From positions 5,139,012 through 5,203,011 of the forward strand of contig OZ025878.1 in assembly GCA_964019415.1 (NCBI GenBank): a DNA stretch of 64,000 bases. The letters are read 5' to 3'. The number at the start of each line of letters is the position of its first letter. Position 1 is the stretch's first letter. The position numbers were made by a program, and so were the translations under genes. Origin of the DNA: Ianthella basta. Lineage: Eukaryota > Porifera > Demospongiae > Verongiida > Ianthellidae. Below are positions 6,901 to 62,667 of the stretch, piece after piece. Under the pieces are notes generated by a model. That model did not search any database and was not told the DNA's origin. It was given only the letters and a program-made list of their open reading frames with translations.

Positions 6901-9900
6901 CCGCATCCTATAAATCTGTAGGAGAGGCTAACGACGAAGGGCCTCTAGGAACAAGAACGAGTCGGGTAGGAGACGATGACATCGAAGTTTCTGACGGCTT
7001 TAGCTCTCATCGTCTCCCTGACTACCCCCGCGTGTGCTCGGTACCCACTCAGTGGGGTGAAAAGAGCGGCGAGGAGATCGTGCGCCTGTTTGACAAGGCT
7101 TACAGGATGATTGTGCACTGGAGGGCGAACACCTTCAGAGTCCCATCTGGAAAAGTGGGTAAGATGTTTGTTGCTGAGATGAATCGTGTGTTAGGCCAGT
7201 GGGAAGCCGGGAATCCTCTCGAAGGAGTTGCTATCAAAGCTGCGATGTGTATGCCTGCCCTCTTCCTTCAAGTCCCCCATTCTAAGGCTAGGAAGGCTGA
7301 TCAGATTGTCTGCTTGAAGAGGAGACTGGAGCTGTGGCACAAAGGTGACGTTGAAAGCTTGCTGCATGAGTGTGTCACCATCCAAACAAGACTGAAGGAC
7401 ACTTGCAATCACTCATTGAATGGAGGGCAGCATGCAAGTCTTTTTGCCAGGAAAGTACAGCAGGGCAATGTGAAAGCTGCTATAAGGATGATAAGCAAGA
7501 ATGGCTTCACCGGGGTCTTGCAAACAGACAGCATCCAACAGGATGGCAGATCAGTGAAGCGGCACCTTGAGGATAAACACCCAGACAGACGGCCCTTGCA
7601 GGAGAGTGTTCTTGAGGAGGATCGAGGCGGTTCCCAGCCACATCAGGTGATATATGACGAAATCACTGCCCAAATGATTAGGTCAATTGTTCTTAAGATG
7701 ACGGGCCTGGCAGGCCCTTCTGGTTTAGACACCAACAGATGGAAGAGAATCTGTTCATCCTTCTCAAGAGAGTCGGACGACCTCTGTTCCACAATCGCAA
7801 GGATGACAAGACGTCTCTGCAGTGAGTACGTTGATCCAGAGGGTGTCTCTTGCCTACTGGCCCGTCGCCTCATAGCCCTTGATAAATCACCTGGTGTAAG
7901 ACCTATTGGAGTAGGTGAAGTTCTTAGAAGACTCATGGCCAAAGCAGCACTGCAGGTGACCTCAGACTACATCTTTGAAGTGACGGGTCCTTTGCAGCTA
8001 TGTACAGGCCACATTAGTGAGGGTAAGGCTGGGGCTCGTTCTATGAGATGTCTCTATAATGATACCAATACCGAAGCAATTTTGATGATAGATGCTACCA
8101 ATGCCTTCAATTCATTGAACAGAGAAATGACCCTGAGGAATAATTATTCAGGTAATGTGTCCACCGATTGCTCCATTTCTTGTCAATACCTATCGATGTG
8201 ATGTCCCCCTATATGTTGATGGTGAAACCTTGCTCTCTAAGGAAGGCACAACGCAGGGCGACCCCATGGCAATGCCCATGTATGCTCTGGCTACCATCCC
8301 GTTGATCAAGAAAGTTGCGGCTGATGTGAAGCAAATCTGGTATGCTGATGATGCCTCTGCTGGTGGCAGTGTCAGAGGAGTACTGGAATGGTGGCAGAAG
8401 GTCCAGGATGAAGGTCCTCGCTATGGCTATTATCCAAACCCAAGACTTGGCTGCTTGTAAAAGAGGAGCATCTGTCTCAAGCCCTAGAAGCTTTTGAGGG
8501 TTCGGGTGTTAACATCACCAAGAGGACACCAACATCTTGGAGTCCCAATTGGCACAAGAAGGTACATCGAGGAAGTGGTCTCAAACAAGGTTCGTGAGTG
8601 GGTTGCTGAAATTGAAGAACTTGCATCCTTTGCTGTAACTCAACCTCAGGCGGCATATGCAGCACTAACGCACGGATGGAGAAGCGGAACTATTTTACGC
8701 ACATCATTCCAGACATTGGTGATCTACTGGCTCCCCTCGAGAAGGCCTTCCGGGACAAACTCTTGCCAACCATCACAGGAAGGGCAGCCATCAGCGACGA
8801 TGAAAGAGAACTGCTTGCACTACCGGTGAGGCTAGGTGGTCTTGGGGTCCCTAGAGCTGACGAAAGGGCCCAGAGGCAATTTCAGGCCTCTTTGGGAATA
8901 ACAGGACCACTGGTCTCTGCCATCTTAGGCTGCAGCGATGACAACCTCATGGCTGTCCGCAGCTTCCAAAGCGAGGCTAGAGCAGCAAGCAGGAAGGAAG
9001 CAAGAGCAAAAATTGAGGAGGAAGCAAATGTTCTCCGGGGACGGCTGCCCAGGAAAATGAAGAAGGCGAAGGAGTTGACATCGGAAAAAGGGGCATCTGC
9101 TTGGTTAACCACATTGCCTCTTGCTGAGGAAGGTTTCAATCTGCACAAGCAGGCCTTTAGGGATGCTCTCTGTTTGAGATACGGGTGGGATCCAGTGAGG
9201 CTGCCAAGCACATGTGTTTGTGGATCTGCCTTCACAGTGGAGCATTCCCTCAGTTGCCCTCACGGTGCCTTCCCAAGTATCAGACATGACATAGTAAGGG
9301 ATCTGACTGCCAACCTCTTGACGGAAGTCTGTCATGGTGTGGAGATTGAGCCCCATCTTCAACCTTTGACTGGGGAGCAACCCTCTGGACGATCTGCCAT
9401 CAAAGGTGACAATGCCAGACAGGACATCAAAGCCATGGGTTGCTGGGGGAACAGTAGACAACAGACTTTCTTTGATGTCAGAATCTTCAACCCATTTGCC
9501 CCATCCAATTCATCTGATTCCCTGTTGTCTACCTACAAGAAGCACGAAAGAGAAAAGAGAAGAGAATATGAACGTCGCATCCGAGAGATTGAGCATGGTA
9601 CCTCTACCCCATTGTTTTGGCCACTACCGGGGGGTGGGGACCATCAGCATCAGTGATGTACAAGAGATTGGCCTCTCTGATTGCCGACAATACTGGCTCA
9701 CCCTACAATCAAGTGATGAGGATGATCAGACGCCGCATTTCCGTTGCCCTGATTGATGCCTCAATTATGTGTTTACGAGGTGCCAGATCCAGTTTGCACC
9801 ATCCAAAGAGATTGAACCTGTCGGACGGCCCTATTGATCTCCTTGACAATATGTGCTAATTAACCTGCCTATTAACTATACTACTGCCCATGCTTATTAT

Positions 9901-44237: not shown

Positions 44238-47028
44238 TCAGCTAGTGCTGTCTTCAGAGGCGGCTACTAAATGTGCTTGTGGCTCACAATCGCTGCTTGA
44301 AGCGGGTTGATCATGAGCAGGGGCCTCAGCCGAATCCGCAATGACGCCTGCCTCAGCTGCCACACTGCCCAAAGGCATAACATACTTGTAACTTTCTGCA
44401 AGAGATATGAGACCATCAAACTCTTCCTTCAATTCCTGAAAGGTGGGTCTTGACTCTTTGTCACTATTCCAGCACTCTCTCATAATCGAGTAGCTGCAGA
44501 GAATGTATGACTTCATATACCCATACAGCTATTGTGCATTTTGCTACTGTAATTAAGTGCATCACTGTATATAATGTGTGCGACCAGCACAAGTTGCAGA
44601 ATGCTAATGCCAAAAGTGTGTCAATATGTGGAGTTGGCTTACATTCGTTCTGGGCACCCCACAGGAGACTGTAGTCTGTAGCCTGCCATTACCCTGGAGA
44701 TGATAACTGTGTTGCCAAATTCAGTGTATGGCAGATCACCTGCAAATGCCATATATGGAAAGTACTCTGACAAGGAGAAAGATGCCTTTCATTTTGTCAA
44801 TGTGCTAATGCTTTATTAAAGTAGTATATTATTGTACACTTACCAAAACTGAAGATTTCCCACAAGCAGACACCATAAGCCCACCTGCATGCAGGGTCAT
44901 ACTGATTATAAACACAAGCACTGACTATGCTTCATAAAATATAACATTGAATGTCACTGTGATGAAAAAACTTGCTGCACTTGACTGAAGACTCACACAT
45001 CTGATTTCTCACTGAACTCTCCCTTGAGGAATGTCTCAGGTGGCATCCAGCGAATTGGTAGTCGTGTCTTTCGAGTTGAAGTGTACTCCAAAGTCCCCTT
45101 GGCTAGCCCAAAGTCACATATCTTCAATAGCTCATTGTCTCCTACTAAGATGTTGCGGCAGGCCAGGTCACGATGGATGACTCCCTTTGACAGCAGATAC
45201 TCCTATACAGTAGTATAATATTACATAAGTTGACACATAATTGTGCAATGTTCCAGGATTTGTATGATTTAAGAATGTATGCACTGTGCACAGGAACCCA
45301 CACTCCATTGAACATATACCATAATCATGTATAGTGCTGGACCAGCTCTTACCATTCCACTGGCAATCTGCCATCCAAAGCAAGTGAAGCTCTTGAGGTG
45401 TGGTTCAATGTCAGGTGCTTGCGTCACAGGAGAAGGGGAAGCAGAGCCTTCGCCTTCTTCAATGGAGCCTTTTTCCTACATTGGTAATGCAAACACTGCC
45501 TTTACATGTAATACTAAGTGCATTGTCTAGAATAACATCATCAGCACAAGTAAATGTAATTGGAGTAAATGTAATTGCAAGTGCAAGAGGACTTTTGGCT
45601 ATATTCATAGATAATGGATAGATAACCACCAATGCAAGGTGCTCATTCATGGTTACGTGACCTTCAGCAATTTGCACAACATAGTTTTACGGTGGTATTT
45701 TCCATCAGCCACCTGGTCCAATTGTCCACTTCTATTTACGTTAGTCACCGTCAACCCACTTTCTTGCTGAGAATCAACGTTAGTTTGGCACAAGTTGGAT
45801 GGAATGCAGCAACCAAATACAATTGATCCCTATAGATCTACCATTGTTTACTACATTATAATACCATTATAGTAAAACACTCCATTATAGTAAAACACTC
45901 CATTATAGTAAAACACTCCATTATAGTCATATATCATAGCCATATACGTACTTATAGACAAATGTAAAAAGCAACAATGTAGTAATCGAATTGCAGGAGC
46001 CATTTGACCCCAAAGAACATCTCAATGTTCTGTGTTCACCTGCTTATTGGTCAGTTTTATTTTTTGATTCTATCTGATTCAGTTCTTTTGTTCTATTCTG
46101 CAAATTGCGTTTCATATGTTAGGGCTCATTTTGGTCACTGAATGATTGTACACAGGAAGCCGAGACAATAAGATGCTTCAGTATTCCTTACTTCAGTAAC
46201 TCCCTTCTTTGCTCTGAGGTAGTCTTTCAGACTCCCATGGGGAACAAACTGCATGATCAGCATCATTGGGTGTGTGGTGGTGACACAGCCAATCATCTTG
46301 AGGACATGTGGGTTGATGCCATCAGACACTCTCTTCATCACATTAATCTCATCCATAAAAAGCCTTCTCTCATTATCACTGCTAAAGCCTGAATTGGAAA
46401 GATGCAGACATGGCCTTATTAGTAAACCCCTGTAAATAGAGCTATTTACTTACTACCAAGTGAACCTAAAGAAAGAATCTTAGCTGCATGTGAATCAGAA
46501 GGTACATAATTGTTATAACTTTACCCACTAACGTCGAAGCATTTTCACTGCAACTGTGAGATGAGATTTCCCTTCAAACTCCATTTCTTGCTTGTGAGCA
46601 TAGATCCTGGGGGACATGGCTGTCATCGCTAGCATCCCTCTGAACACATCTCCATAGTTCCCTTGACCCACTTTATCACCAATATCAACCTCTTCCCTGG
46701 AAAGCTCCCAAGCATCAGGAAGAGCATCAGAGAAGTGTACAACCTGTATGCACAAACAACAGACAAACACTATAACAGTAATAAATTTTGTGTAATGCAT
46801 AAGCAATTTATATGCAGTACCTAAAATCAAGAGTTACTGTACCTGTACTCTTGCTATAATGCACTTGCAGTGCTAGCAAATTGCACAATATAGTAAAGTG
46901 TACTGTTAGAATGCATAGCATATATACAGTACAATTTAAAATGAAACTCATCCTCTCTAAATAATGCGTGTACCTCAACATTTGCTTGTCCAGCAGGTCG
47001 TGCGTGGTAGTGTGCTGATGGAGTCATT
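44238..47028 (-). CDS. Gene C exons 15-22: tyrosine kinase domain and tail
   Basis: Exons are 46974-47028, 46533-46743, 46192-46388, 45353-45475, 44997-45202, 44844-44884, 44643-44766 and 44238-44493. Visible motifs are the Gly loop GQGNYGDVF, beta-3 VAVK (Lys near 1000), helix C Glu in MDEINVMK, catalytic [15 protein letters not shown], one activation-loop Tyr (TLEYTSTRK), [25 protein letters not shown] and [12 protein letters not shown]. All catalytic residues are present. HRDLACRN replaces the usual HRDLAARN of most RTKs. A Ser/Glu-rich insert ([11 protein letters not shown]) sits between the hinge and helix E. The tail has a YKYVMP candidate phosphosite. The stop TGA is at 44238-44240. 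Confidence 0.92.
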
Positions 47029-50000
47029 CTACAATAGCAAGGTTAAAGAATATGCCTGAGCAGATACAAGTGTTCCTCTTCGATAGTTTAATGCTCACAG
47101 AGGTGAAGTGGCATTGCAAGTAATGAGACAATACTATGAAATGCTGCATATGCCTATTAATGTACGTATCTATATAAATGTTAGTACCACCCAGTGGTAG
47201 GCTGCAGTATACCTCTCTGTCTTCTGCTCTTTTGATTTTCTCACTCTGTACCTAATGCAAGCCACGGTAACCACACAAGCTCCCCCAGAAGATACAAACA
47301 AAATAGTGACAACCACAATGATAATAGTGGTAGTACTGTCGGTTGGTGTTGCCACAGTATCCACTGGGGTTGCTGCTGCACTAGTTGGAAAGCTAGTAGG
47401 TGTACCGGAAGCTGCATAAGCACAAGAACACAGAAGTGACAGCCCTAGCAGCTGTGCAGCTATGCATGTCATTAAAAATCATACAAAGATGCTTTTATGT
47501 GTCACACTGGGTCACACTCATCAGTGCAGCACTGAAGACCCCGCCCTGTATTCATATCTCCCTCCAAACAGGTTAGCCAAAGAGATTGGGCTTGAGGCTG
47601 TCATGAAAAGCAACCATTAAGAGCGATGTGCAACATTGGTTCAGTACTATCAATCAACTGTAAGACAGCAATTTAGCTGGGGCTGCCTTGGACCGCTGGA
47701 TAGGAGGGGATATTACCCAATTTGCCTGTCTCACAAACTAAAACAGCTAGTCTGAAAACACTGCCTACAATTCAAGGCCAACAGCTCACATTTAATCTGA
47801 TTGTGAGCAGCTATATATACAGTGGTATGAGCTCGAGTTTTTTTGCATCCGCACTGTGCTTGCACGAAGCATGCTGTATGCATGCCTCCTAGATTACTGT
47901 GTGATAAAATGTCAAATGTTATTAATATTGCCATGTACACACACCTGCATGAATGTGTTCCACAAGCACCAGCAACTGATTCATGTTGGACACAAAGTTG
48001 CAGCTTGAATTAAACAACTCCAATACCAGTACACTCTCGTTTCCCATCATGGAAGAGGGCAGATCACTGATATTCAGATTACAAGTGGTTTCAGTGCTAT
48101 TCATCTCAAAGTAGCAGCAAGGACTTTGTGCCAGTTTGTAACCTATGATGAAAAATGTACGTAGGCATGAAATGGCATAACCAATGACATTGCTTTGCCA
48201 AACTTGTTTATCATGTAGTCTCATTGGGAACGAGACTGTATATCATGTTGTATGGCAATATTTTAATAATTTGGATGTATTATGTTCCTGCAATAACATT
48301 GCTTGAATGGCAATATTTTTCAGTGAATATATGAAAAGTGCATAAATTGCAAATAGATTGTAAAGCTACTAGCAAAGGGTTTTTGTACATGTGCATGGGA
48401 CCTTTCCTTCACATAACTGTACGCTTTGCCTCACTGCACATAATTCTCATCAATTTTTATGTTATGTGGAAACACCATTAAGTGATTCCTTGTAGTCTTA
48501 ATTTCTGTTAAGATGAAAGCACTGATATGGACTAGGTGCAGAAAAACTGAACACATGCAGCTCTTCTACTATAGATTCCTTCTCAATTCTATGTATTTAT
48601 GCTGCTTTGATGAGAGCTTAGCAATAGAATATTTCGGAGTTTATTAGCAAACTTTACAACTTTCAAAACAATAAGCCAGCTACTGGTATTGTCAATGGCA
48701 CAATGGTTAACAACAAGTACAGTGAAACCTGTATACAAGTCTCTGTACACAAGCTTAATGCTTAAGCTTCTTAGTTCACTTGTCCTTGGGAGGTACATGC
48801 AGGCCTCATGACTCGTGAAGTAAGAAGCATATTGCCTGGCTTAGTGCACAATAATTATATAACAAAAAGCCAACTACTACTGAGTCAATTATATTGTCTC
48901 TGTGACAATGATGCTAGTGTAAACCCATCTCAACTTACTGTCAGCAGTCTCATTGAGAAGTCTGAAGCTTTCAGTAAGACATGCCCATGTGCAAATGTTA
49001 GGGTCTGTAAGACTACTTCGCAGGATTGTAACTTCCAGTTCCACAGATGTTTTGGTATCACTGACAGTCACCTCAATTCCTGTCGTCTTCCAGGAGTACT
49101 CAGGGACTGCATTGAGGTATTGGGCAAGCCATAAATTTTAAAACAGTACCACTGTGTTGAGAACATAAGTAACAAAGATGTTCATAGCTTGCAGCAGCAA
49201 CATTATTGAATTAATTAACACAGCCAAAATGTCACTGGAATGGAACCTGCAACTGTTCAATAACCATTGCCATTTTAATGCACTAGTAAAGGACTCTGCA
49301 AACATGTCAGTGCACTCACCATTGTATATAATAACTTCCTTTGCTTGATTGCAAGAGGCATTGGTCATCTCTTGCCCAGCATGATTCAATGTCACAATTC
49401 CTGGGACAGCAGTGGCTTCAATGTCTGCATTTGTACCCTTCAAGTCAATGGCACAATTAGTGTGTAATTTCATCAGTTGGAATTGGCAGCTTGTATCTAA
49501 GGCTGTAGATGACAAGACCATACATGTATAGAGTTCCCTTACCTAGGATTTATAAGTGAACTCCTGAATGCATGTACAGCTATACAACTTACACAAAGTT
49601 ATTCCACTGCTTGTAAATGTGAGATTCAGAGAAATGGAAGCTGTACCACAAGCAGGACTGCTCCGAGTTACATTCACAAACACTTGTTTAGGCTTTACAA
49701 TTGCCTCTTCTGTATTCACTTCACTGAAGCAGAACTCTTCTTTTGCATCTATCACAATAATGCACAGATGACATCAGACACGGAACTGCTAAAAGCTATT
49801 AAACATGTTTCTATGTTGTATTGTATTGTATTACTATTAATTAGGTTCCTTTTTAAATATTCCCAGGTATAGGAGTGTATGTACAGTATACAATAACATT
49901 GCATCAACAGACGTGGCTGCCTAAATAATAACGAAGGTTTATCTTTAAAGGCATTGGTTGCATTGAGAATGGGTTATTGCAGACTATATTATAGCAGTTA

Positions 50001-52515
50001 GCTCCAAAATAGGACCATTGGAACATCAACTTTACCTTCATCCTTGATTGTGATGTCAGTTGAAGGGATCTCGCCAAGTCTGAATCCTTCTCCAAGAATT
50101 ATGATGTGTGCTTTGAATGTTTCATCACACTCTGGTATATCATCGTTCACTAGTGGAATTTCCACATTTTCCATGTTAGATCCACCGTTAAAAGTTACTG
50201 AGTACACGTCACAATGTACGTCATCCATACCTAAATATATACAAGGATACAATATGTAAGTCATATAATTTATAGTAATTTACAATCCTTCAGGCCGTGT
50301 GCCTCAGCTTACATTGAGCACTGTTGCTGGTGATGTTCAGAGTGACGTTGAAATCCTCATCACTGGCAGGGCTAGCAGTGACAGTCAATGTGAGATTTTG
50401 TCCTTCTTCCACTCTAACACTTTCTGCTTGAAATGATAAGAAAATATCTTCTTGAATGTAAACAGTTGCCTCCCGTATATCTCCCACACTTATTGCCACA
50501 TCATTTGACGTGACTGAATGACCTGACAACCGTGCCATAAAATACTCTGTGCCTTCATTTGAGATCAGGTCTCTGACAATAGGGATGCTAATCACTGCAG
50601 AAGTCGCATTGTCCACAAAGATCCCATCATAAGTGCCTCCTTTAAAGTCAAAACCAACTGCAATAGCGTCAAATTGGTATTATAATTCAAACAGCACATT
50701 TCCATAATTATGTGGCCCACATGCAAATCATCTGTCATGGCTCTTGCAGCAACACTCACCTGATGCATTGCCAATGCCGTATACTGTGTCCACTTGTACT
50801 GTATAGTTTGAGTGTGGGATAGCCTTACTGGAGTTAAGTGTGAGGCTGACACTTCCAACTGACTCATAGACAGAGTACTTTGATCTACCAAAAGTGCACA
50901 TTACTACAATAGTGTCCCGAATAGTGATGTTGGCTGAAGCTGATTTGTTTGTGTCATTGAACTCTGACAGTAACTCTACAGTGAAGTACTCCTCATCCTC
51001 ATCCACCTGGTCATGATGAATTAGAATCTCCACAAGGGCAGAGTTAGATCCCTTGGAAAACACGGCTCTGATGTCTTCATTACCAGTAAGTGTGGCATAG
51101 TCACTTCCAACTTCATATATGATGCAAGACAATCATAACACGCATGTAGTACAAGCATGGGATATCTTAAATAATACCACCAATATATGCTAATATGTTC
51201 CTATTTGTGCATGCATGGAGTGCATGCAGCAGTAATGTTAGGCAGGGATAAAAATTGAGATGGGGGATTGGGGGATACTATTGATAGATGCTTAATTAGC
51301 ACTTGACTGCTGCACACCCCCATGAGAATGGGCGCAGCTACTACCATGCATCTAAAGCTATGACTGAGACATCATATCTAACATCTGTGTACCCTCAACA
51401 TCATGCAGCTATGTTTAAATCCCTGGATGTGCTTGGCTCATGTGAATGGAGTGACAAATTCTCATACAAACTGAATGTTATTATTGAGAGATCAATTCAT
51501 TGCAGTAATCCACTGCAACAGCCAGGCCGGCTAGGTTGAACAAGGGCAAATCACTGGGTATTACACCTACCAGCCTTTAGATCTACACCATAGTGTGTCA
51601 GGAGGCTGGGGGGCGGAGCCCGACTGATAACAACCAGTGATTGCCAGTTGTGTTTACTGCCTCAATTGTTCTGAGTAAGTAGTCTGTCAGCCCCAGCCGA
51701 ATTGGTCCATAGTAGATCAAGAAGAAAGCTGGCAAGCTGAATTAACTTACTTCTTCTTGATCTGCAATGGACCAATTCTTATGTGATTATGTCAAACAAT
51801 GTCAACACTACATACTGTAAGCTAGTATTTGAAATATTATGCCTTTATGTACAGTGTCAGGTTGTATAATTCATGTGGAACCCTTACTCTCTGTGGAACC
51901 CTTATTCTCTGTGAGAAGTGGTGGAATGCTGCTTGTATATTGTCTTTCAACAATATTTTCAATAGTACAGTAGAACCTGTCTATGATGGTCACTGTGTTA
52001 GGCTTCCACCTATATCTCTAAACAGCACCAAAGCTTTGCAATCTATGTCTGTAGAGCAGCCACCTCTATAAAGGTCAGTTAGAACTGGGCCACAGGCGGT
52101 TATCTTAGACAGGTTTCCTATGTCTGTAGAGCAGCCACCTCTATAAAGGTCAGTTAGAACTGGGCCACAGGCGGTTATCTTAGACTGGTTTCATTGTATA
52201 ATTATGTGCTAGCACATGCACAGTAAATGTAGCTTACACATAGCTGATCCATTCTTCAATCGCACTGCCATGGACAGCTCTTCTGTAGCTGTTAAGGTTG
52301 ATACCAACTCAATTGTAACTGACTGCAGTACTTCAAATGTAACATACGTGGCAGCAGAGAAATGATAAAAGCCTGCAGTGGCAGTTCAGAGATTATACTT
52401 GAATTTGATTATAATTATTTTGCCAACAATGGAAGTTGCTTGCTATTGTAATTATAATTTTACCCCTAGCCCTCCCACACATGTACATGCCCACACACAC
52501 ACAGCATACACACAC

Positions 52516-52589
<74 letters not shown>

Positions 52590-55500
52590 TCAGTGAATGT
52601 GCCAATACTATTTATTTAGGCACCATTACCATGGATACCATATTTTCTCAGGCTTGGTAGTGTGTGTATAGTGCAAACCTGCAACTGATGCAATTCACTT
52701 CCGGTAACATGCACGCGGATTGGAGGTTTGCGCAGGTTTGGTTTGCACATAACATAATTATGTATATATACCACACTTTCAGGGAATATAATTATTAATG
52801 ATATATTCCTTGGCCTTCAGCCTTAAGAATATCCCCTAATACATCATCTTACATACATAATACATTATTTCAGTTAAATCTGCATGGGAGAAGTATCTCC
52901 AGCAGTCCTTATCAAGCATTGCTTTCCACAAATCTTGCTGATCTTCTCTCTACATGCCCCAGATTGTCAGGATGGTGTCTGAATAAGTTCGTTTAGCCCC
53001 CATGCCATGCCTGCCCTTTGCCTTGGGCTTCCACATTAGCAGTTGGCATACTGGTTGTGGGGCATAGCCGCTCATACAAGCACAGTGACCAACAAGCTAA
53101 GTCTTTCTGCTACTGGCTGTATGTTTTGACACACTAGAGCATTGGTCTAATGATCTTGCCATCTAATCCCTAGGGCATACCACAGTAGCCGGGTGTAGGT
53201 ACCATTCAGAGCTCTCTCTAACCCCTTGGTCAGTGTCCATGCCTCTGCTCCATAGAACTAAACAGTCTCTACAGTGGCTTGAAAAAGACGTGATGTTACT
53301 GGTCACATTAGACCGCCACACCCTGTGCATCCACTTGCATGCCTGCCAAGCTTGAGCTCGTTGAACCTCAAAATCTCTCCTTGATGACAGTACCCAGCTA
53401 CCAAGGTACTTGAAATCTTTGGTCTGGACAATTGGACCTTCAATCACTGTCAGTTCTGGATCAGCCTTGAAGTCACCCACTAACATGTATTCCATCTTCT
53501 TACAGTTGATCTTCAGACCAACAGTTAGTGCCTCCTTTTCCACACTAGTGAGTAGAGCCTGTGCATCTTCATGGCTGTGTGAGAGCAAGACAATGTCATC
53601 TGCAAAGTCCAGGTCTAATACTGCAATTGCAAGAGAAGATGATTGTGATTGGGTGTCCCCACGTGGACTGATGATCAAGCCATGGGACTCATCAGGCATG
53701 GCACATCTCAAACCCCGGTTGACCACCTTTACAAAACAGTATAGTGCTAGACTTTTCCCTTGCAGTACCTCAGCAGCTCAGTGACTCGATCAGCTGTGAC
53801 CAGGACCAAGCCAGGAGCACAGCCAGCCTTAAGAGCTTTCACTGCCGAATCTAGTTCCTCGCTGGTAATGGGTACTTGCTCAAATTGGGGTGATGATTGA
53901 AAAACTGGTTCACAATGAATGGGCACTGTGGTGACACTGAAATCAGCAGGTGACAAGAGAGTTTCAAAATGACTCCTCCACACTTGGCTTGAGTCATTCA
54001 GTATAGGTGTCTGCAGCAATGATGCTCTGTGCTCTCACCTTCCTTCCTGTGAGCACACGTACTGACCAGTTGCCATGCAGCTTTGTGTTGATTAGCCTCA
54101 TCATAACACTCTGCTTCCTTCCTCAATGATTGCGAGATGATAAGTCTCTTCACGCTTCCTTCAATGAAGGTAAAATAAAGCTCAGGCTGCAAGCTCAACC
54201 TTCCTCCTGGCTACTGCACTGCTCCTGTTTGCTTGAAGGGCTCTGTGGGCATTCACCAGTTCTTGACAGGATTCTTGGATGCCTTCATCCTTCGTCCTTC
54301 GTCCTCGGCCCAAGATATTACCCTCTGCATAGCTGACAAGGCAGGAACAGATGTAGTTGCAGTTCTAATGGCATTATGAAAATAGTAAGTACTTCACTTT
54401 TCCATCTATCTACTCTACAAGAACCTTTGATGTGACTGATGACGTCAGCATGACATTCATGGTTTGTGTGAAGCCTGTCCCAGTTCCTAAGAGTGCAGCG
54501 TGTAACTTTGGTCTTCTTTGTGACCTGGTGCCAGCAACACTTAACAACGGCGGCTGCATAATCGGATTTGACATTGTGCACTTGCTTGGCCTCACAGTCA
54601 AGGAAGGATGAGCACCACTTTCTTCGAGCAACGATGTGATCTAGATCTGCCTCATGTCTGCCTCTAGGTCCATAGAAGGTGACTAGTCGGTACTTACGTT
54701 TCTGGAATTGGCCGTTCACAGCCACCAAATCTGTCCCATTTGCCAGATCACGTAGCAGATCTCGATTGCAATTCAGCCCTTGTCATGGCAATGTTTCAGT
54801 TCAGCATCACTTGAAGAGGATGTATGTATTTGAAACATTGATCGGATGCATCCTCTTCAAGACATAAGGACTCCCTATCGGATCAGCATTCTACTGTATA
54901 TACCTAAAAAGCAGTCCAATTAGTTATGACATAGTAAACTACCTAGCTTTAAGAAAAATTTTGCATAAAAAACTTTGCATAATTATTCATAGTATTATAC
55001 ATAATATTCTTCATCCTATCTGCAAAGGTATGATATTCCATCAAAAGTAGTAGATCTCAATTGCGATTCAGCCCTTGTTGTGGGCAATGTTTTGATTCAG
55101 CATCACTGAAGAGGATGTATGTATTTGAAACATTGATCGAATACATCCTTTTCGAGTGTGGCATAACACATTTCAGAATGGAAATATCAGTGCCATTTAC
55201 AAGACTGCACAGTTGTTCTTGTTAATTAGGCTGAAAGTGAATTGAATTACATTAAAACAACAAGAAAGCAAAAATGGACACCTTGCACCTCGTGATATAT
55301 GAGCCAACATCTGCAGGAAACACTTGACTACCTAATTTGTTTCGTAATGATTTGGGATGGTAGGCATCTATGTGATTATCATCATACTGAAGTGGCCTTT
55401 TGATATGCCTACCACTGTATCACATACAGAGCAGTGGGTGAATGTGTATGAGAGTAGGAATGAATGCTCAGTTAACCTTCTTTGGTGAAAAACATAGCTG

Positions 55501-56829
55501 ATTCAATGAAACCACCAACTATAAACACCATCACCCTGTAGATGCCTGCTGGAGGAGCCGTGATGGTTAGTCTTCCGGCAGCGCCTTGGGCTGCTCCGCC
55601 AACTGAGAAGAAGTCGACAGTCAATTTTTAATTAAAGCAATAATCACAGCAACATATACATATACCTATGTTTCTGCATGCAGTGTACGCCAGGATGTGT
55701 GTGCATGCGTGTACACATATGACTAGGACATAGGAAGACAGGCAGGGCAATTGTTAGGCAGTGTCTCACCAACTAAGTCACAATTGTAGTCCCGCACTTC
55801 ATAGCTTATGATTGGGGTGTCAGGGTTCCAGGTAATGGCCATTGGTCTTGCAACTTCTATACAAAGTTGAACAACTGCAGCAAGCAAACGAACGAGAGCG
55901 AAGCACATACCGCAAAAACAGCAAGTCATTGAATTGGTTAACAACTTACAGAGATTAACTGATGGGAAAAGATGTAGAGGTGGAAAGCATCTAGGATCAA
56001 CTAAATCTACACACTCATTGGTTGGTTGATAGAGATACTGTCCATTCTTACAATACTGTCCATTCTTACAATAGCATCCTGGACCATTTGAGACCATTCC
56101 ATTTGGACATACATTCTTGCTATCACACTGTATGTATTCACGATCAGGATCGAGACACTCCTTTTGTGGACCACCCCCTGGAGTAGACACGGGTACAATG
56201 AGACAGATAAGAGATAGTAATACTTACTGACTTATACTACCCAGTATATCCACACATACTGCACAAGCAATCAGTGTCATGTACCCTATACATTGACAAC
56301 ATTACCATGCTGTCTGATTCAAGATATATACACCTTCACTTCAAGCTCACATGTGAACACTATTGAGTTGCTTCTGTAACACGTTGCAGGACAATTAGTC
56401 CATAGTACGAATCTATCATCACTGATAGCACCATCCACACACTGAGGACGTATGTCAACTGGAATCTGGCACAGTGCATTGGCAGGGCCTAAAGCAGTCA
56501 CAATAAGGCATAGCAAGTTAAGCTGGTGAATAGCTTACAGTGGAATCATTGCAGCTAGTGCACTAACAATACCAGACAGTCCTTGATCCCTAGTCAAAGT
56601 ACTTACATATGCTAGAGCCATAAATTGTCGTCCGGGCTTCGTCCGTCAGCTCTACCAAGCACACAGGATTTCTCCAGTAGGTCTGGACAGACCACTGATT
56701 GTCAGAGGATATCAGGAATGCAGCTTGGTATGTGACCAATACACTGCAATACTCTTGGGCATCAGCGACACCACCTTGGCTGAGGAGTGTTGCTAACATA
56801 AGAAAGAGTCGCAAACAGCACATAAGCAT
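44238..56829 (-). CDS. Gene C: receptor tyrosine kinase with Calx-beta ectodomain
   Basis: Twenty-two exons with GT-AG junctions whose phases all close give about 3957 nt and 1318 residues. The order is signal peptide, Cys-rich region, FN3-like module, Calx-beta repeats, four Cys-bearing exons, a transmembrane helix near residue 880, a juxtamembrane segment, a tyrosine kinase (about 950-1260) and a short tail. It should bind an extracellular cue at the plasma membrane and phosphorylate tyrosines. Exons 1-13 are all joined by phase-1 introns; the kinase exons use mixed phases. No stop or frameshift was found. A LINE lies in the intron between exons 5 and 6. Calx-beta is not a standard module of bilaterian RTKs, so the combination is unusual. 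The ligand is unknown. Confidence 0.85.
45864..45928. repeat. 18-bp tandem repeat, about 3.6 copies
   Basis: The unit CCATTATAGTAAAACACT is repeated three times exactly plus a partial copy, in the gene C intron between exons 17 and 18. Confidence 0.9.
47213..47411 (-). CDS. Gene C exon 14: stalk and transmembrane helix
   Basis: A Thr/Pro/Ser/Ala-rich stalk ([18 protein letters not shown]) is followed by the helix [20 protein letters not shown] and a basic stop-transfer ([11 protein letters not shown]). The exon starts after a pyrimidine-rich TGCAG acceptor and joins exon 13 in phase 1. The same frame is open upstream to an ATG at 47470-47472, which would give a signal-peptide-like start; see findings. 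Confidence 0.85.
47945..49748 (-). CDS. Gene C exons 10-13: membrane-proximal Cys modules of unknown type
   Basis: Exons are 49593-49748, 49320-49496, 48939-49106 and 47945-48142 (156, 177, 168, 198 nt), all phase 1. They are strand-rich with several cysteines and N-glycosylation sequons (NVT, NLT, NAS, NET, NST, NSS). Exon 10 begins right after the last Calx-beta end and may contain another N-half ([20 protein letters not shown]). I do not recognise a named domain. They join in frame to the transmembrane exon. Confidence 0.7.
50036..52372 (-). CDS. Gene C exons 6-9: Calx-beta repeats
   Basis: Exons are 52238-52372 (N-half, [20 protein letters not shown]), 50760-51110 (C-half [20 protein letters not shown] plus next N-half), 50313-50657 (C-half [18 protein letters not shown] plus next N-half) and 50036-50230 (C-half, [18 protein letters not shown]). 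That gives three complete repeats. The acidic D-x-x-x-E-x-x-E-x-F turn and the [12 protein letters not shown] ends fit calcium-binding Calx-beta. In gene A most halves are on separate exons, while here two exons carry a C-half fused to the next N-half, indicating intron loss or gain. Confidence 0.82.
51966..52195. repeat. Dispersed repeat copy 2 with internal ~77-bp tandem duplication
   Basis: It starts CAGTAGAACCTGTCTATGAT and contains TGTCTGTAGAGCAGCCACC ... TTATCTTAGACAGGTTTC twice in tandem (from about 52045 and 52122). Same family as 36490 and 63482. It lies in the gene C intron before exon 6. Confidence 0.65.
52519..52584. repeat. (CA)n microsatellite
   Basis: Pure CA tract in the intron between gene C exons 5 and 6. 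Confidence 0.95.
52870..54790 (-). mobile_element. LINE with APE-type endonuclease and RT, decayed
   Basis: On minus, the end of an endonuclease ([20 protein letters not shown], with the D-H-I pattern of APE nucleases, about 54650) is followed by a linker ([12 protein letters not shown]), an RT start ([20 protein letters not shown]), then the palm [20 protein letters not shown] and [13 protein letters not shown], then a tail ([19 protein letters not shown]). The middle of RT is missing and frames shift several times. The clade is probably the CR1/Craft-like or RTE side of APE LINEs, not settled. It is inserted in a gene C intron on the same strand. Confidence 0.8.
54750..54862. repeat. Direct repeat with hairpin, copy 1
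   Basis: This matches 55047-55162 (TAGATCTC-ATTGC-ATTCAGCCCTTG ... GAAGAGGATGTATGTATTTG). Copy 1 has 13-bp perfect arms CTTGAAGAGGATG / CATCCTCTTCAAG around TTTGAAACATTGATC. Confidence 0.7.
55047..55162. repeat. Direct repeat with hairpin, copy 2
   Basis: The second copy of 54750-54862, with ACTGAAGAGGATGTATG and TTTGAAACATTGATCG. The right arm is more diverged (CATCCTTTTCGAG). Confidence 0.7.
55477..56829 (-). CDS. Gene C exons 1-5: signal peptide, Cys-rich and FN3-like modules
   Basis: Exons are 56607-56829, 56351-56488, 55950-56177, 55770-55874 and 55477-55602. The ATG at 56827-56829 starts [20 protein letters not shown], a signal peptide; an ATG 15 bases upstream is also in frame. Exon 2 is Cys-rich. 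Exon 3 ([18 protein letters not shown]) resembles a TIL/EGF-like Cys module with an 18-bp in-frame repeat (CKNGQY twice). Exons 4-5 form an FN3-like pattern ([34 protein letters not shown]). I chose the exon 2 donor GTGAGC at 56350 because it alone gives phase 1. Confidence 0.7.
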
Positions 56830-57140: not shown

Positions 57141-57453
57141 AACACTCTCCTATTCTTATACACATTCATTTCTATGGCTCCACATGTATAATTGCGTGTT
57201 ATGCTACAGGCACTGACTGTCAAAGCTATCGACGTGCTGATGGAGCAGAAACAGTTACCATCTACCTTCTGGGCAACAGAGTGGACAAGCAGTCATTCTA
57301 ATACAGAGTCTAATCATTAGGAGGAAGAGAACAGTAGTTTAGATTCACAGCTGATATAGTATACCTCTCTTGATTGTATAGGAAGCAGTTGCTGTACAGG
57401 TGCAGGTACTTTTCAGCTAGTACTAGGTGAACCACTAGCAAGCAGCTGTTTTG
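57141..57453. repeat. Long inverted duplication, left arm
   Basis: Reverse complement of 60239-60808, about 313 bases here. Matching blocks include AACACTCTCCT, CATTTCTATGGCTCCACATG, GGCACTGACTG and GCAGTTGCTGTACAGGT. The right arm has about 270 extra bases (60488-60758). Confidence 0.7.
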
Positions 57454-57586
57454 TATCCCATTTCTCCAATTTAAAAATGGTTACACCAGGTGTGAGATTA
57501 ATGTATCAGATGCAATTATGCTTTACTGGCCACTAAAACACCACACTTAATCTTTAATGTTCAGTAAGAACTCGGAATGCATCATC

Positions 57587-57750
57587 ATCACTCCTCACAT
57601 CATGTGGCAGGAGCAACACAAGGAAATAATCCCGACGAAATGTACATACATGTAGTATGTTATGCAGTTTAGCTTTCTAATCATGCATAGCACTTCAGCC
57701 CAAAGATGATTCTCAACTGCAATACAGATTGACCATTGTATGTTGCAGGC
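57587..57750. repeat. Direct repeat, copy 1 (partner 58473-58610)
   Basis: ACTCCTCACATCATG-GGCAGGAGCAACAC recurs at 58481, followed by similar sequence to about TTGACCATTGTATG / TTGAGCATTGTAATG. Non-coding; probably a dispersed repeat. Confidence 0.6.
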
Positions 57751-58887
57751 ATAGTTTTGAAAGCTAAGCTGCTATTCCACCTTCTCTATAAAATTACATA
57801 TGTTTCTTATAAAATCAACACAGCATCAAAGACTATGGTTTATACAGGATCAGAAGAAAAGGAACAAGTTAATACACAGAGAATATTGCTGGGATTACGA
57901 TCTGATACTGCCTGAACCATAATGTACGTAATTGAAAGAAATGTTATTCTCTAGTACAGGACATGCGTGGTTGCTGTAAGTCTGAAATGAGCTTAATCTG
58001 TACCGCTGTGTGAACTGATTAGTGATTAATTAATGAAGTGGGCCTCAGTCCTATAGGAAGGTGTGGTGATTGACCTGGGCACCTCTCGCGCACATTACAG
58101 CTGAGCACAACAGTTCAAATCCATGGCTAACAGTTTGTGTCACAATTCGTTTCAAACTTTCCTGACTTTTCATGTACACTGTGTGAGAAGGCTGTCTTAG
58201 TCAGATTTGTATATACATGATATTCATTGGCGCTGACCCACATACACCTACATGTGACAAGTAATCAATTAAGAACACAGTTTCACACTTCCATGACTCC
58301 ATTAATTGACAGCAGCACAAGTTTCACCCTTCACCTTGTACTTGGGTTTCCTCATCAGGCAACACGGAAATTTGGTTCAGTGCTCTCGGAAATGTTAGAA
58401 TGAAATGCAGTTAATATGGGACAGTTTATCATTACCCATAAACAATTTCAATGCACTCTGATTAGTCAGATTCACTCCTCACATCATGCAGCAGGAGCAA
58501 CACCATGAAATGATTCTGAGCCAGATCTGTGTTATATAGCTTAGCCTTCAATCATGTGTGACACTGCAACCCAAGATTTTTGTCAACTTCAATACCAATT
58601 GAGCATTGTAATGGACATTTATAATTTGAAAACGAAGTTGCCTTGCTCAGAATTAGTCCATTCATAATATGTTAATTTAATTAATAAACTTATTTCACAC
58701 CAATTGCCAGATGGAAGGACTGGGAAGATTTGTTAGGCTTTCTGTCAAGACATGGTTTGTGAAGTGCATTGTACATGTTACAGAGTGCATGCATTTCTGG
58801 AAACCAATCCCATCCCTACATCTCTGAATTAGTTGGTCTTTCAGTGGCACTTCCATGCAGATCAAGACAGCAATTTCTGCAGCATAA

Positions 58888-58940
58888 GCATTTTGTGTGC
58901 ATGGGGTCATCATAATGATGACCCCATGCACACAAAATGC
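58888..58940. repeat. Perfect 26-bp palindrome with 1-base spacer
   Basis: Left arm 58888-58913 (from GCATTTTGTG to TCATCAT), spacer A at 58914, right arm 58915-58940 its exact reverse complement. It would extrude as a 26-bp hairpin. Confidence 0.95.
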
Positions 58941-59464
58941 ACATGGACAAATTCACACATGCACAGACGTACATGCATGCAACACAGTCCACAACATCCA
59001 GACACTTTATTAGTGTAATAGTCTTTCAAATTGTACCAGATGGAGGCCAAGCCCTGTGCAGGCATCCTAAGTCCACAGAAGTGTACCAGTAGGGAGCTCA
59101 GTGATGACTGAGCCTTCCTCTCTTCTCATTATCACTGCAACTGATCATTGTGAATATGAACTATAATTGTCAGGGTCAGGGGATCATTATTTAGACTGGG
59201 GAGCCTTTAGCCATAGGCTATTCTCCCAGGAGCCCAGTAAAAGGAAAAAAAGGAAAAAGAAACGGGAACACAGTGCAAAACAGAACAGAGAGAAGAAATG
59301 ATGTAAAAGTAAAGACATGCATGGAGGATTTACATTTGCTGGGTTCATTCAAGCAGTTATAAAAGAATATTAAAAATGGTGAAGAATTTTGATCATACAT
59401 GCATGCATGCTGTATAGGTGAAAGGGAAGCAAGAGGAAACTGATCATGCACATGCACATAAAGG

Positions 59465-59900
59465 TCAGTCCAGGAGGAAATCTTCACACTTGGCAGAGAA
59501 CGCCCTGAAATTTTTCATCGCATGGATGTTCGCAGGGAGCGATCTCCACATAGAGGCACCAGTAAAACTGAATGACCTTTGACCAAAAGATGACCTTGTG
59601 AATGGGAGGTTGAGTTGACACGAAGAGTACAACTGAGTATGATGGGAGGAGTTTGGACGAGAGAAAAGCTGAAATATGTAGGACAGACACTGGGAAGAGA
59701 GGCACTTCAAGACAGACTGGGAAAGATGAAGCTTCCTTCTGGAGGACAGTGTTGATAGACCAAGATCGTAGTGAGCAGCAGAAACAGAAGATGTATGTTG
59801 TAGTGGACAAGTATCATGTGTATCAGTGGATCTGCTGCAATCTATAGCTAACCACGTAGGTGCCATTCTCAGTAACTTGCACAGCACTCAAGAGGCATCT
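59465..59900 (-). pseudogene. LINE RT C-terminal fragment
   Basis: On minus it reads LGLSTLSSRRKLHLSQSVLK, then LPFTRSSFGQRSFSFTGASM and WRSLPANI ... AFSAKCEDFLLD. This is the post-RT region of Jockey/CR1/L2-like LINEs (SF-x-GA-x-x-W-x-SLP). It is a 5'-truncated copy; an A/G-rich tract follows at 59240-59290. Confidence 0.75.
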
Positions 59901-60238
59901 GGGAATATATATCATTTCACTGTACATGTGCGGTTGCCCCTTCCATGGTGATGTAACACCAGTGCCCTTTACATGCACTTTGGCTACATTGAAATGTACC
60001 CTACTTCATGATCACGCACTTCCTGCCACTACAGGTTGATAGCAGACATCAGGCACCATAGGGAATAGCTATAGCAATGCTGGATACATACAACAAAGAT
60101 CTAGCATTCTTTAGGATGTGAAATGTATTTTGTATTATTATATTATAGTTCTACAAATGCATCACTAACAAGTAATCCAAGCACTATTATGATTCAATCA
60201 CGAACAAGTGCAGAAAATTTGGAGACTGAAACATGATA

Positions 60239-60808
60239 CAAAACAGCTGCTTGCCAGTAGTTCCTAGTACTAGTTGAAAAGGGCCTGAACCTGTACAGCA
60301 ACTGCTTTCTATACCGAAGACAGGTATGCTAAATCAGCTGTCAACCTAAACTACTACCCTTTTCCTCCTAATGCTTAGATTCTGTATTGAAATGACTGCT
60401 TGGCCACTCCGTTGCCCAGAAGGTGGATGGTAAATGATTCTGTTCCATCAGCACGGCATATAGCTTTGGCAGTCAGTGCCTGTAGCATAGAGAGAGAATG
60501 ATACATACATTGTCATTAGAGCATTAAAGATGAGGGAGTGGACTGCAAGTCTAGAGAAGCATTGGGAAGGAGTGAGGTTTGTTGTACATTAATTCTGTCT
60601 TAGGGCCACCTCCTTCCTAGCATTGTAACTGACATATATACATCTTTTAGGGCAGAGCTGAAACACACCATTGGCATCAGGAAGTCCATGAATACTGAAT
60701 TCTTCCTCTACAATCCTATTCTCTACAGTGAAAGCAAACACAAATAACATGCAAATACATGTGGAGCCATAGAAATGAATCGAATGTGTGTAAGAACAGG
60801 AGAGTGTT
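60239..60808. repeat. Long inverted duplication, right arm
   Basis: Partner of 57141-57453 in inverse orientation, enclosing about 2.8 kb. Positions 60488-60758 have no counterpart in the left arm. Confidence 0.7.
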
Positions 60809-61803
60809 CAGTTGTGGACGTCAGAAAGTGGAAGATGAAGTTTGATGACTTCATGCTCATGAAGCAAGTGGGCAGTTGGCAGTTTGCAGTAGTGATGCGG
60901 GTCTGCCTTAGCCAACAGCCGCATCACCAGCAGTCACTCAGTGTATTTTAAAGCAGACAGCTCTTAGTGGCCACTCCCTCCCTTACTAGTAGCTGTGAAG
61001 CAGTTCCAAGGTGAGATCCTATATAGTAAAGAGGGTTGCTAATGCTAAGCTTACGACATTATAGACATAAGGAGAGTCATGCACATCACAAATTACTTGC
61101 CACTTAGTCTCATGTAGTCTGGTTGCCATGGCAGTCTTGCTACACTGGACTTGTTTCCACTGTTGGCTCACTGATTAGTTATGACTGTGGTCTAGGGCAT
61201 GGTTGTGTGTATAGAGCAGCAAGTTAGTAATTTTATGCTATACATATATGAGCTATACTTCCTCCCTACCTTCCTCTTAGCTGAGAGAATGCATCTAGAG
61301 GAGCAGTTCCTTTACAAGGAGGTTGCCATTAGGAGATTTGCACACTTGGTTAGTGGAGGGAGTCTGATACTGTGGATCTGTAGAACATATGAACGACATT
61401 GGGTGGCACATAATGTGTTTATATGTATATTTTGTGATCGCTTGTTTTATTTGCAGAATGTGTGTAATGTGTGGTTTTGTCCTTTGTACTGCAGGGTCTT
61501 CCCTCAACAGGCATGTTAACCTACCATCACTCGAGCAATTGCTGTGAAGGCCGTATATTTGGGTGCCAAGCCTTTGAGCCAGATGGCTGCAGAGGAGTGT
61601 GTTCTTGTCCACATGCTGGACAAAGGACTCTACACTCTCCAGATGTAGTCAGAGGGTGTGATAATACAGCACCGACATCACTCATTCGTTGATCCAAATC
61701 CACAGACCACTGACAACTGTCAGGAGTCTAATCGTAAAGAACGATCTCATAATGAAATATCTCTCTATTCCAAGTGATATGCCGTGTCTACATGCAAGTA
61801 TAA
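60809..61803. other. Intergenic, no recognised gene
   Basis: A 106-residue plus frame at 61199-61519 and a Cys-containing plus frame at 61471-61692 have no recognisable motif. I do not call a gene. Confidence 0.4.
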
Positions 61804-61806
61804 ATT

Positions 61807-62535
61807 ACGGTACGGTGCATAGAAAACATGACGTTAACGGAAAACTGGTAACCGTTATCGTCGGTTATCGTTAGCAAACAGCGAACGGTGAAACGTTAAT
61901 CGGTATCTAGTAACGTTTAATTGTTAACTGGTAGCGATTTTACCCCTACTAAAGGGCGACGGTATACGTAGGTGCGCAGGAGCAGTTTCCAGTGTTCGCG
62001 AAGGAGACTGGTCCCGTCGTAGCGCACTAAGCCGCTGTCTTCACATCTGATGATAATAGTGACCGTGTCTCTGCAATAGATTCCGAAAAGCAGCGTCTTC
62101 GCAAGTCTCTCCGAAAGGTTGCGTACTGATCCAAGCGCCTCCTAGTCTATTCAAACAGCTCCGAATAGTACCGTCTTTACAGGTGTCCAATCCACGAATG
62201 ACAACGTATGCGTCTCCGAAGAGTTCGGCCGCGATTCGGGCAAAACTACTGCACAGGGCGCCACTAAACTCTCAGGTACTATAAAGTGGGACTCCAGAAG
62301 TGTTCTCCATGGGTTGACATCGCCCGTCTTGCAGTTCTTGAAGAGATATTCTTCAATTTCCGGTTTTTCGTTCGCGGCTGACGGCCATTTTATTACGATT
62401 AACGGTTTTCCGTTGACTGTTACCGGTTAAACGCTAACAGGTAATCAAAAATATTCACGGATAAAGGAGTGATAACGACGAAAAGAGTTAACCGACAAAC
62501 GGAATTATCGTCATGTTTTCTATGCACCGTACCGT
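61807..62535. mobile_element. 729-bp MITE with 27-bp perfect TIRs and ATT target duplication
   Basis: Both ends carry the same 27 bp inward (ACGGTACGGTGCATAGAAAA then CATGACG). They are flanked by ATT at 61804-61806 and 62536-62538. The interior near both ends is rich in GTTAACGG/CCGTTAAC words and has no transposase. A 3-bp duplication suggests PIF/Harbinger-like mobilisation, though TWA is more usual; the superfamily is uncertain. It lies between gene C and the gene D stop. Confidence 0.85.
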
Positions 62536-62667
62536 ATTGTTAACTCTCCTTGCCTCTTAGTTTAACACTATAATTATGTATCGTCCCTTATATAAAGGTG
62601 TTATATAGTGATACTGCAGCTGCTGAAATGTTGTTCATTAATTATCATTGGACCCTTGATTCTCAGC

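Follow-up and report, generated by a model that had tools for sequence, protein, structure and literature searches.

A receptor tyrosine kinase gene model with Calx-beta repeats in its ectodomain in the sponge Ianthella basta

Receptor tyrosine kinases (RTKs) gained many of their ectodomains through shuffling. As for the Calx-beta domain, that of NCX1 is intracellular, ADGRV1 is a Calx-beta adhesion GPCR, and the sponge aggregation-factor proteins are secreted and not known to carry a kinase. Proteins of Microciona prolifera with 4 and 15 Calx-beta repeats are described in PMC2805694, and PMC12716839 describes GPCR-TKs of sponges and choanoflagellates, which are unusual receptor-kinase combinations.

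A search of the open-access literature returned no Calx-beta RTK. This is weak evidence of novelty, and it agrees with the initial annotation of the DNA studied here, which does not count Calx-beta among the normal RTK modules of bilaterians. Such a receptor was not described in the accessible parts of PMC8242945, PMC8662651, PMC6792448, PMC11229196, PMC6208332, PMC2805694, PMC12716839 and PMC4302439. A figure legend in PMC8242945 mentions both Calx-beta and TyrKc, and the combination could hide in the data set of that paper.

The window, i.e. the whole stretch of 64,000 nucleotides that was analysed, covers positions 5139012-5203011 of contig C11 (genome G000; 209 Mb in 96 contigs). We inspected window positions 43500-64000 directly, with the open frames of both strands listed. 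The exon chain was assembled from sites picked among the listed GT and AG dinucleotides, and the minus-strand open frames across the gene were inspected.

The resulting gene lies on the minus strand, with its ATG at 56829 and its stop codon ending at 44238; these limits are identical to those of the initial annotation. The 22 exons (Table 1) encode 1311 residues (3936 nt including the stop) without an internal stop, and all 21 introns are GT-AG. The description of a complete 22-exon gene that stays in frame over every intron was thus borne out in the model. The exon number agreed as well, while the protein came out 7 residues shorter than the 1318 given earlier. An alternative acceptor of exon 11, at 49496, lies six bases further and leaves the frame unchanged.

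Table 1. Positions of the exons of the RTK gene model, and of a mobile-element fragment in one of its introns, in the window.
Feature	Positions	Strand	Remarks
exon 1	56607..56829	(-)	ATG and a leader resembling a signal peptide (by eye), then the beginning of the Cys-rich N-terminal region; no Pfam match
exon 2	56351..56488	(-)	Cys-rich N-terminal region; phase 1 at both ends
exon 3	55950..56177	(-)	Cys-rich N-terminal region; no Pfam match
exon 4	55770..55874	(-)	N-terminal region
exon 5	55477..55602	(-)	N-terminal region; codon score +0.19 in frame (null mean -0.25)
LINE-type reverse-transcriptase fragment	53166..53777	(-)	in intron 5, outside the mRNA; RVT_1 35.6 bits
exon 6	52238..52372	(-)	Calx-beta repeat 1, first half
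exon 7	50760..51110	(-)	Calx-beta repeat 1, second half, and repeat 2, first half; repeat borders by eye
exon 8	50313..50657	(-)	Calx-beta repeat 2, second half, and repeat 3, first half
exon 9	50036..50230	(-)	Calx-beta repeat 3, second half
exon 10	49593..49748	(-)	juxtamembrane ectodomain; no Pfam match
exon 11	49320..49502	(-)	juxtamembrane ectodomain
exon 12	48939..49106	(-)	juxtamembrane ectodomain; codon score +0.06 in frame
exon 13	47945..48142	(-)	juxtamembrane ectodomain
exon 14	47213..47411	(-)	Ser/Thr/Pro-rich stalk, TM helix (about 47331-47254), then basic residues
exon 15	46974..47028	(-)	cytoplasmic juxtamembrane
exon 16	46533..46743	(-)	kinase N-lobe: glycine loop GQGNYG, VAVK lysine (residue 1002)
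exon 17	46192..46388	(-)	kinase N-lobe and hinge
exon 18	45353..45475	(-)	kinase insert, then helix
exon 19	44997..45202	(-)	HRDLACRN (1122-1129), DFG (1142-1144), activation loop, RWMPPE
exon 20	44844..44884	(-)	kinase C-lobe
exon 21	44643..44739	(-)	kinase C-lobe
exon 22	44238..44493	(-)	kinase end, C-terminal tail, stop

A Pfam scan of the spliced model, a check proposed with the initial annotation, found both Calx-beta and a nearly full-length tyrosine kinase. Three families reached their cut-offs. Calx-beta (PF03160) matched in three stretches with E 1.1e-23 and 83.9 bits (cut-off 27), the best-placed stretch being residues 274-384. The tyrosine kinase family PK_Tyr_Ser-Thr (PF07714) matched over profile positions 2-257 of 258 with E 4.9e-81 and 272.3 bits, and the Pkinase match of 132.3 bits is the same domain. 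No ectodomain family besides Calx-beta reached its Pfam cut-off in the spliced model; the rows X, fn3_5 and LapA fell below theirs and were discarded. Six introns (16-21) cut the kinase and one cuts each Calx-beta repeat, yet the profile matches are near full-length, which argues for more than chance.

The catalytic motifs of the kinase, among them the catalytic lysine, HRDLACRN and DFG, were read directly in the translated model. The hydropathy of the model has a single peak: a strongly hydrophobic segment near residues 878-903 (2.68 as the highest 19-residue mean) follows the Ser/Thr/Pro-rich stalk, and the 12 best windows all begin at residues 875-886. A single TM helix is predicted from this profile between the ectodomain and the kinase. 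We thus confirmed that Calx-beta, a TM helix and a tyrosine kinase stand together in one gene model.

The statement that the ectodomain is built of Calx-beta repeats was correct as to their presence and overstated as to their share, as exons 6-9 account for 342 of the ~853 ectodomain residues (~40%). Scanned alone, neither the 273 N-terminal residues (exons 1-5) nor the 234 juxtamembrane residues (exons 10-13) matched a Pfam family at E up to 1, and the best match of the juxtamembrane part in the PDB had an E of only 0.28. We observed 11 sequons in the Calx-beta part, compared to a shuffled mean of 3.80 (a count reached by 0.1% of shuffles), and 8 in exons 10-13, compared to 3.93 (reached by 2.0%). 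The cytoplasmic part had none in 407 residues, which is not significant by itself (27.8% of shuffles likewise had none).

The introns fall into two groups with respect to phase. Introns 1-13, up to the TM exon, are all of phase 1, and the eight introns after the TM exon have the mixed phases 2, 0, 1, 0, 0, 2, 1 and 2. A run of phase-1 introns followed by mixed phases typically marks genes in which a shuffled ectodomain has been fused to a kinase. That the run ends at the TM exon therefore supports such a joining here.

We also observed that Calx-beta is abundant in this genome, and especially around the window. At least 150 matches scored above the family cut-off (150 scored of 969 candidates). 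Among these listed matches, 96 were on C11, and 83 fell within C11 4.80-6.45 Mb, a region of 1.65 Mb around the window. Matches were also listed on contigs C6 and C23. As many as 129 of the 150 begin at profile position 48-55, a pattern consistent with an ancient mid-domain intron and suggestive of one shared exon module. The intron within the Calx-beta repeats of the RTK lies near profile position 50, which is about the same place as in the listed matches.

Our best reading of the locus is that exon shuffling brought this locally abundant module to an RTK, and both the phase pattern and the shared intron position support it. We consider it probable that the gene encodes an animal single-pass RTK whose ectodomain was built by phase-1 exon shuffling, with three Calx-beta repeats taken from a module abundant in the genome. 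Judged from its sequence, the gene is probably real and functional, and its combination of domains is unusual but understandable. The Calx-beta exons and the kinase of the RTK itself are absent from the listed genome matches. In eight of the listed Calx-beta loci (3.3 kb each), Calx-beta-type matches to the RTK model were found in three and kinase matches in none. By eye, no tyrosine kinase lay within 50 kb of a Calx-beta match among the 150 of 969 Calx-beta and 130 of 2,397 tyrosine kinase candidates listed, a comparison that decides nothing because the RTK itself is missing from these lists. Relatives of the kinase were not found in the collections genome_contigs and viral_contigs, as expected for these collections.

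Both the Calx-beta part and the kinase stand firm and their link is probable; the first exons are the least sure. The weakest parts of the model are exons 1-5 and the link of exon 13 to exon 14. Two measures apply to the whole gene. In a leave-one-out splice profile, which was trained on the model's own sites and so measures consistency, not truth, all 21 donors and all 21 acceptors ranked within the top 31% of the GT and AG sites of the span. The codon-usage score was trained on the kinase exons, with 145 open frames as the null (mean -0.25, standard deviation 0.16, best reach 0.24). The model frame scored best in 10 of the 15 non-kinase exons (5-12, 14 and 15) and was not the best in exons 1-4 and 13. 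Scores of at least 0 were obtained for exons 5, 7, 8, 9, 12, 14 and 15, with the other non-kinase exons at -0.09 to -0.24; exons 1-4, 6, 10, 11 and 13 were within one standard deviation of the null.

The low scores of exons 1-4 bear on the possibility that exons 1-5 are part of a different gene or that the 5' end is wrong, with the kinase and the Calx-beta repeats still in one gene. Such an error, which would be compatible with the shuffled receptor described above, is in our estimate unlikely. It would account for the length of intron 5 (3104 nt, with the LINE fragment), for its donor AAG|GTTAAC (with a score that 12.5% of GT sites reach), for the lack of a Pfam match in exons 1-5, and for the lack of sequons there, although a count of zero in 249 residues is not significant (21% of shuffles likewise had zero). 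On the other hand, the region consists of five short consecutive exons joined in phase 1, with a leader after the ATG. It also has 17 cysteines in 249 residues, and the codon score of exon 5 is above the null mean.

The link of exon 13 to exon 14 is where two genes could have been taken for one. A Calx-beta protein would then read through exon 13 and terminate after GVCTWQY. A second gene, for a short receptor kinase, would start at its own Met, which lies ~20 codons before the acceptor of exon 14, and would supply a signal peptide, a short stalk and the TM helix. Exon 13 does meet a stop 7 residues past its donor and its codon usage is not coding-like, while the frame of exon 14 extends upstream through 20 residues that look like a signal peptide by eye; however, pyrimidine tracts before acceptors tend to translate as hydrophobic residues anyway. 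Introns 12 and 13 measure 796 and 533 nt, and an ATTAAA is present on the minus strand at 47791, between the two exons, but such hexamers are common (4 AATAAA and 7 ATTAAA in 14 kb of the minus strand). By the leave-one-out profile, the donor of intron 13 stands at 8.9%, and the acceptor at exon 14 is a good one, with a score that 3.4% of AG sites reach. Intron 13 has phase 1, like the 12 introns upstream. In addition, exons 10-13 are rich in sequons, and an outside part of ~27 residues would be unusual in an RTK. We regard two genes as improbable. A pseudogene or an assembly chimera, for which the transposon fragment within intron 5 might speak, is hardly credible given that the 3936 nt have no stop or frameshift and that the catalytic motifs and every splice dinucleotide are preserved.

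Besides the RTK, the window has a likely second gene with Calx-beta domains, which begins ~16 kb downstream of the RTK stop and occupies the minus strand between about 27.9 and 11 kb. The sampled single exons likely form one gene, and by sequence it is probably a Calx-beta adhesion GPCR. Among the five open frames that were scanned, two gave Calx-beta matches above the cut-off (52.4 and 50.2 bits), two matched below it (22.2 and 15.1 bits) and one had no match. Further downstream follow an HRM-like stretch (22.5 bits, under the cut-off of 26.2), a GPS motif (36.8 bits) and the initial portion of a secretin-type 7TM domain (7tm_2, 85.3 bits, with three exon translations joined by X). The two listed Calx-beta matches in the window (18138 and 19350) both belong to this neighbour. 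A tblastn search of the RTK against its own window gave only self matches at E 0.01, and with no RTK match elsewhere in the window, the two genes share no recent ectodomain copy.

A more speculative idea, to which we give little credence, is that the region works as a receptor-building cluster and swaps a single Calx-beta exon module between outputs: the RTK, the adhesion GPCR and perhaps kinase-less adhesion proteins. Were it true, the animal would have receptors that look alike outside the cell but differ inside it, possibly for self/non-self or cell-sorting recognition beside the aggregation factors.

The window also contains repeats and mobile elements. A 544-residue open frame at 3018-4649 (minus strand) encodes a reverse transcriptase (RVT_1, 77.4 bits), and the long frames at 5247-6227 (minus), 6855-8198 (plus) and 8616-9653 (plus) had no Pfam match at E 0.01. 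A 75-bp unit is present in two tandem copies with 98% matches at 52043-52192, in intron 6. Positions 57200-60489, just upstream of the RTK start, hold an interrupted inverted repeat with arms of 139, 52, 36 and 30 nt that are 86-97% complementary and ~3 kb apart; it is perhaps a fold-back element. At 61797-62545, ~750 bp between 41-nt inverted repeats (88%) are MITE-like.

The initial annotation had further suggested a possible lineage-specific, calcium-tuned RTK family. The calcium tuning is unproven and was weakened by a comparison with CBD1 of NCX1, the sole relevant solved relative of the repeats, at the positions that we take to be its calcium ligands. NCX1 was matched in the PDB search with the Calx-beta query at E 0.068. 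CBD1 matched repeat 2 weakly (E 0.028), with unrelated chains scoring as well or better, and repeat 3 also weakly (E 0.17). The unrelated chains matching the repeat 2 query (E 0.0053-0.028) were discarded, as were the armadillo matches of the Calx-beta query (best E 1.9e-05), which add up many weakly scoring copies of a single short motif.

In these weak alignments, the DDD of IIDDD corresponds to RDL in repeat 2 and to NDD in repeat 3, where two of the three Asp are thus retained; by eye, repeat 1 has HDQ. None of the three repeats retains the Glu of KPGE (Ala and Ser stand there in the alignments of repeats 2 and 3; repeat 1 was judged by eye). The Asp of TEDGTA is Tyr in repeat 2 and, by eye, Asn in repeat 1; in repeat 3, the position is beyond the aligned part. 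The Asp of GSDY is retained in repeats 1 (by eye) and 3, and the Glu of LENC in repeat 2. Most of the acidic positions compared are therefore missing in repeats 1 and 2, for which a CBD1-like calcium switch appears unlikely; repeat 3 keeps part of the motif.

As for function, the ectodomain of the proposed RTK may be a glycosylated rod for adhesion or ligand binding, in which the main role of Calx-beta would be that of a structural beta-sandwich or an adhesion module, not of a calcium switch. Binding to a partner, either in the matrix or on a second cell, would cluster the receptor, the clustered kinases would phosphorylate each other at Tyr1152 of the activation loop, and signalling would then proceed via further cytoplasmic tyrosines.

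Compared with known systems, the RTK shares the Calx-beta fold of its repeats with CBD1 of NCX1, with several calcium-ligand positions replaced. Its ectodomain has tandem Calx-beta repeats, as do the sponge aggregation-factor proteins, and the receptor would tie kinases to a domain of these factors. The GPCR-TKs carry a 7TM domain, in contrast to the single TM helix found here. Calx-beta adhesion GPCRs of the ADGRV1 sort also present Calx-beta on a receptor. The neighbour, on the same strand, is a candidate for this group and has HRM-like, GPS and 7tm_2 parts where the RTK has its kinase. An RTK and an adhesion GPCR with Calx-beta so near each other would show clearly how one adhesion module serves two signalling systems. 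The best PDB matches of the kinase were a chain of EGFR with two kinase copies (its score is inflated by them), a Src-Abl ancestor, RET and FGFR. FGFR, RET and EGFR likewise have a single TM helix and a complete kinase with an insert, a likeness by PDB match and not a family assignment, and the Ianthella receptor differs from them in the Calx-beta repeats of its ectodomain. It leaves the concept of an RTK unchanged and is an unusual pairing of familiar parts.
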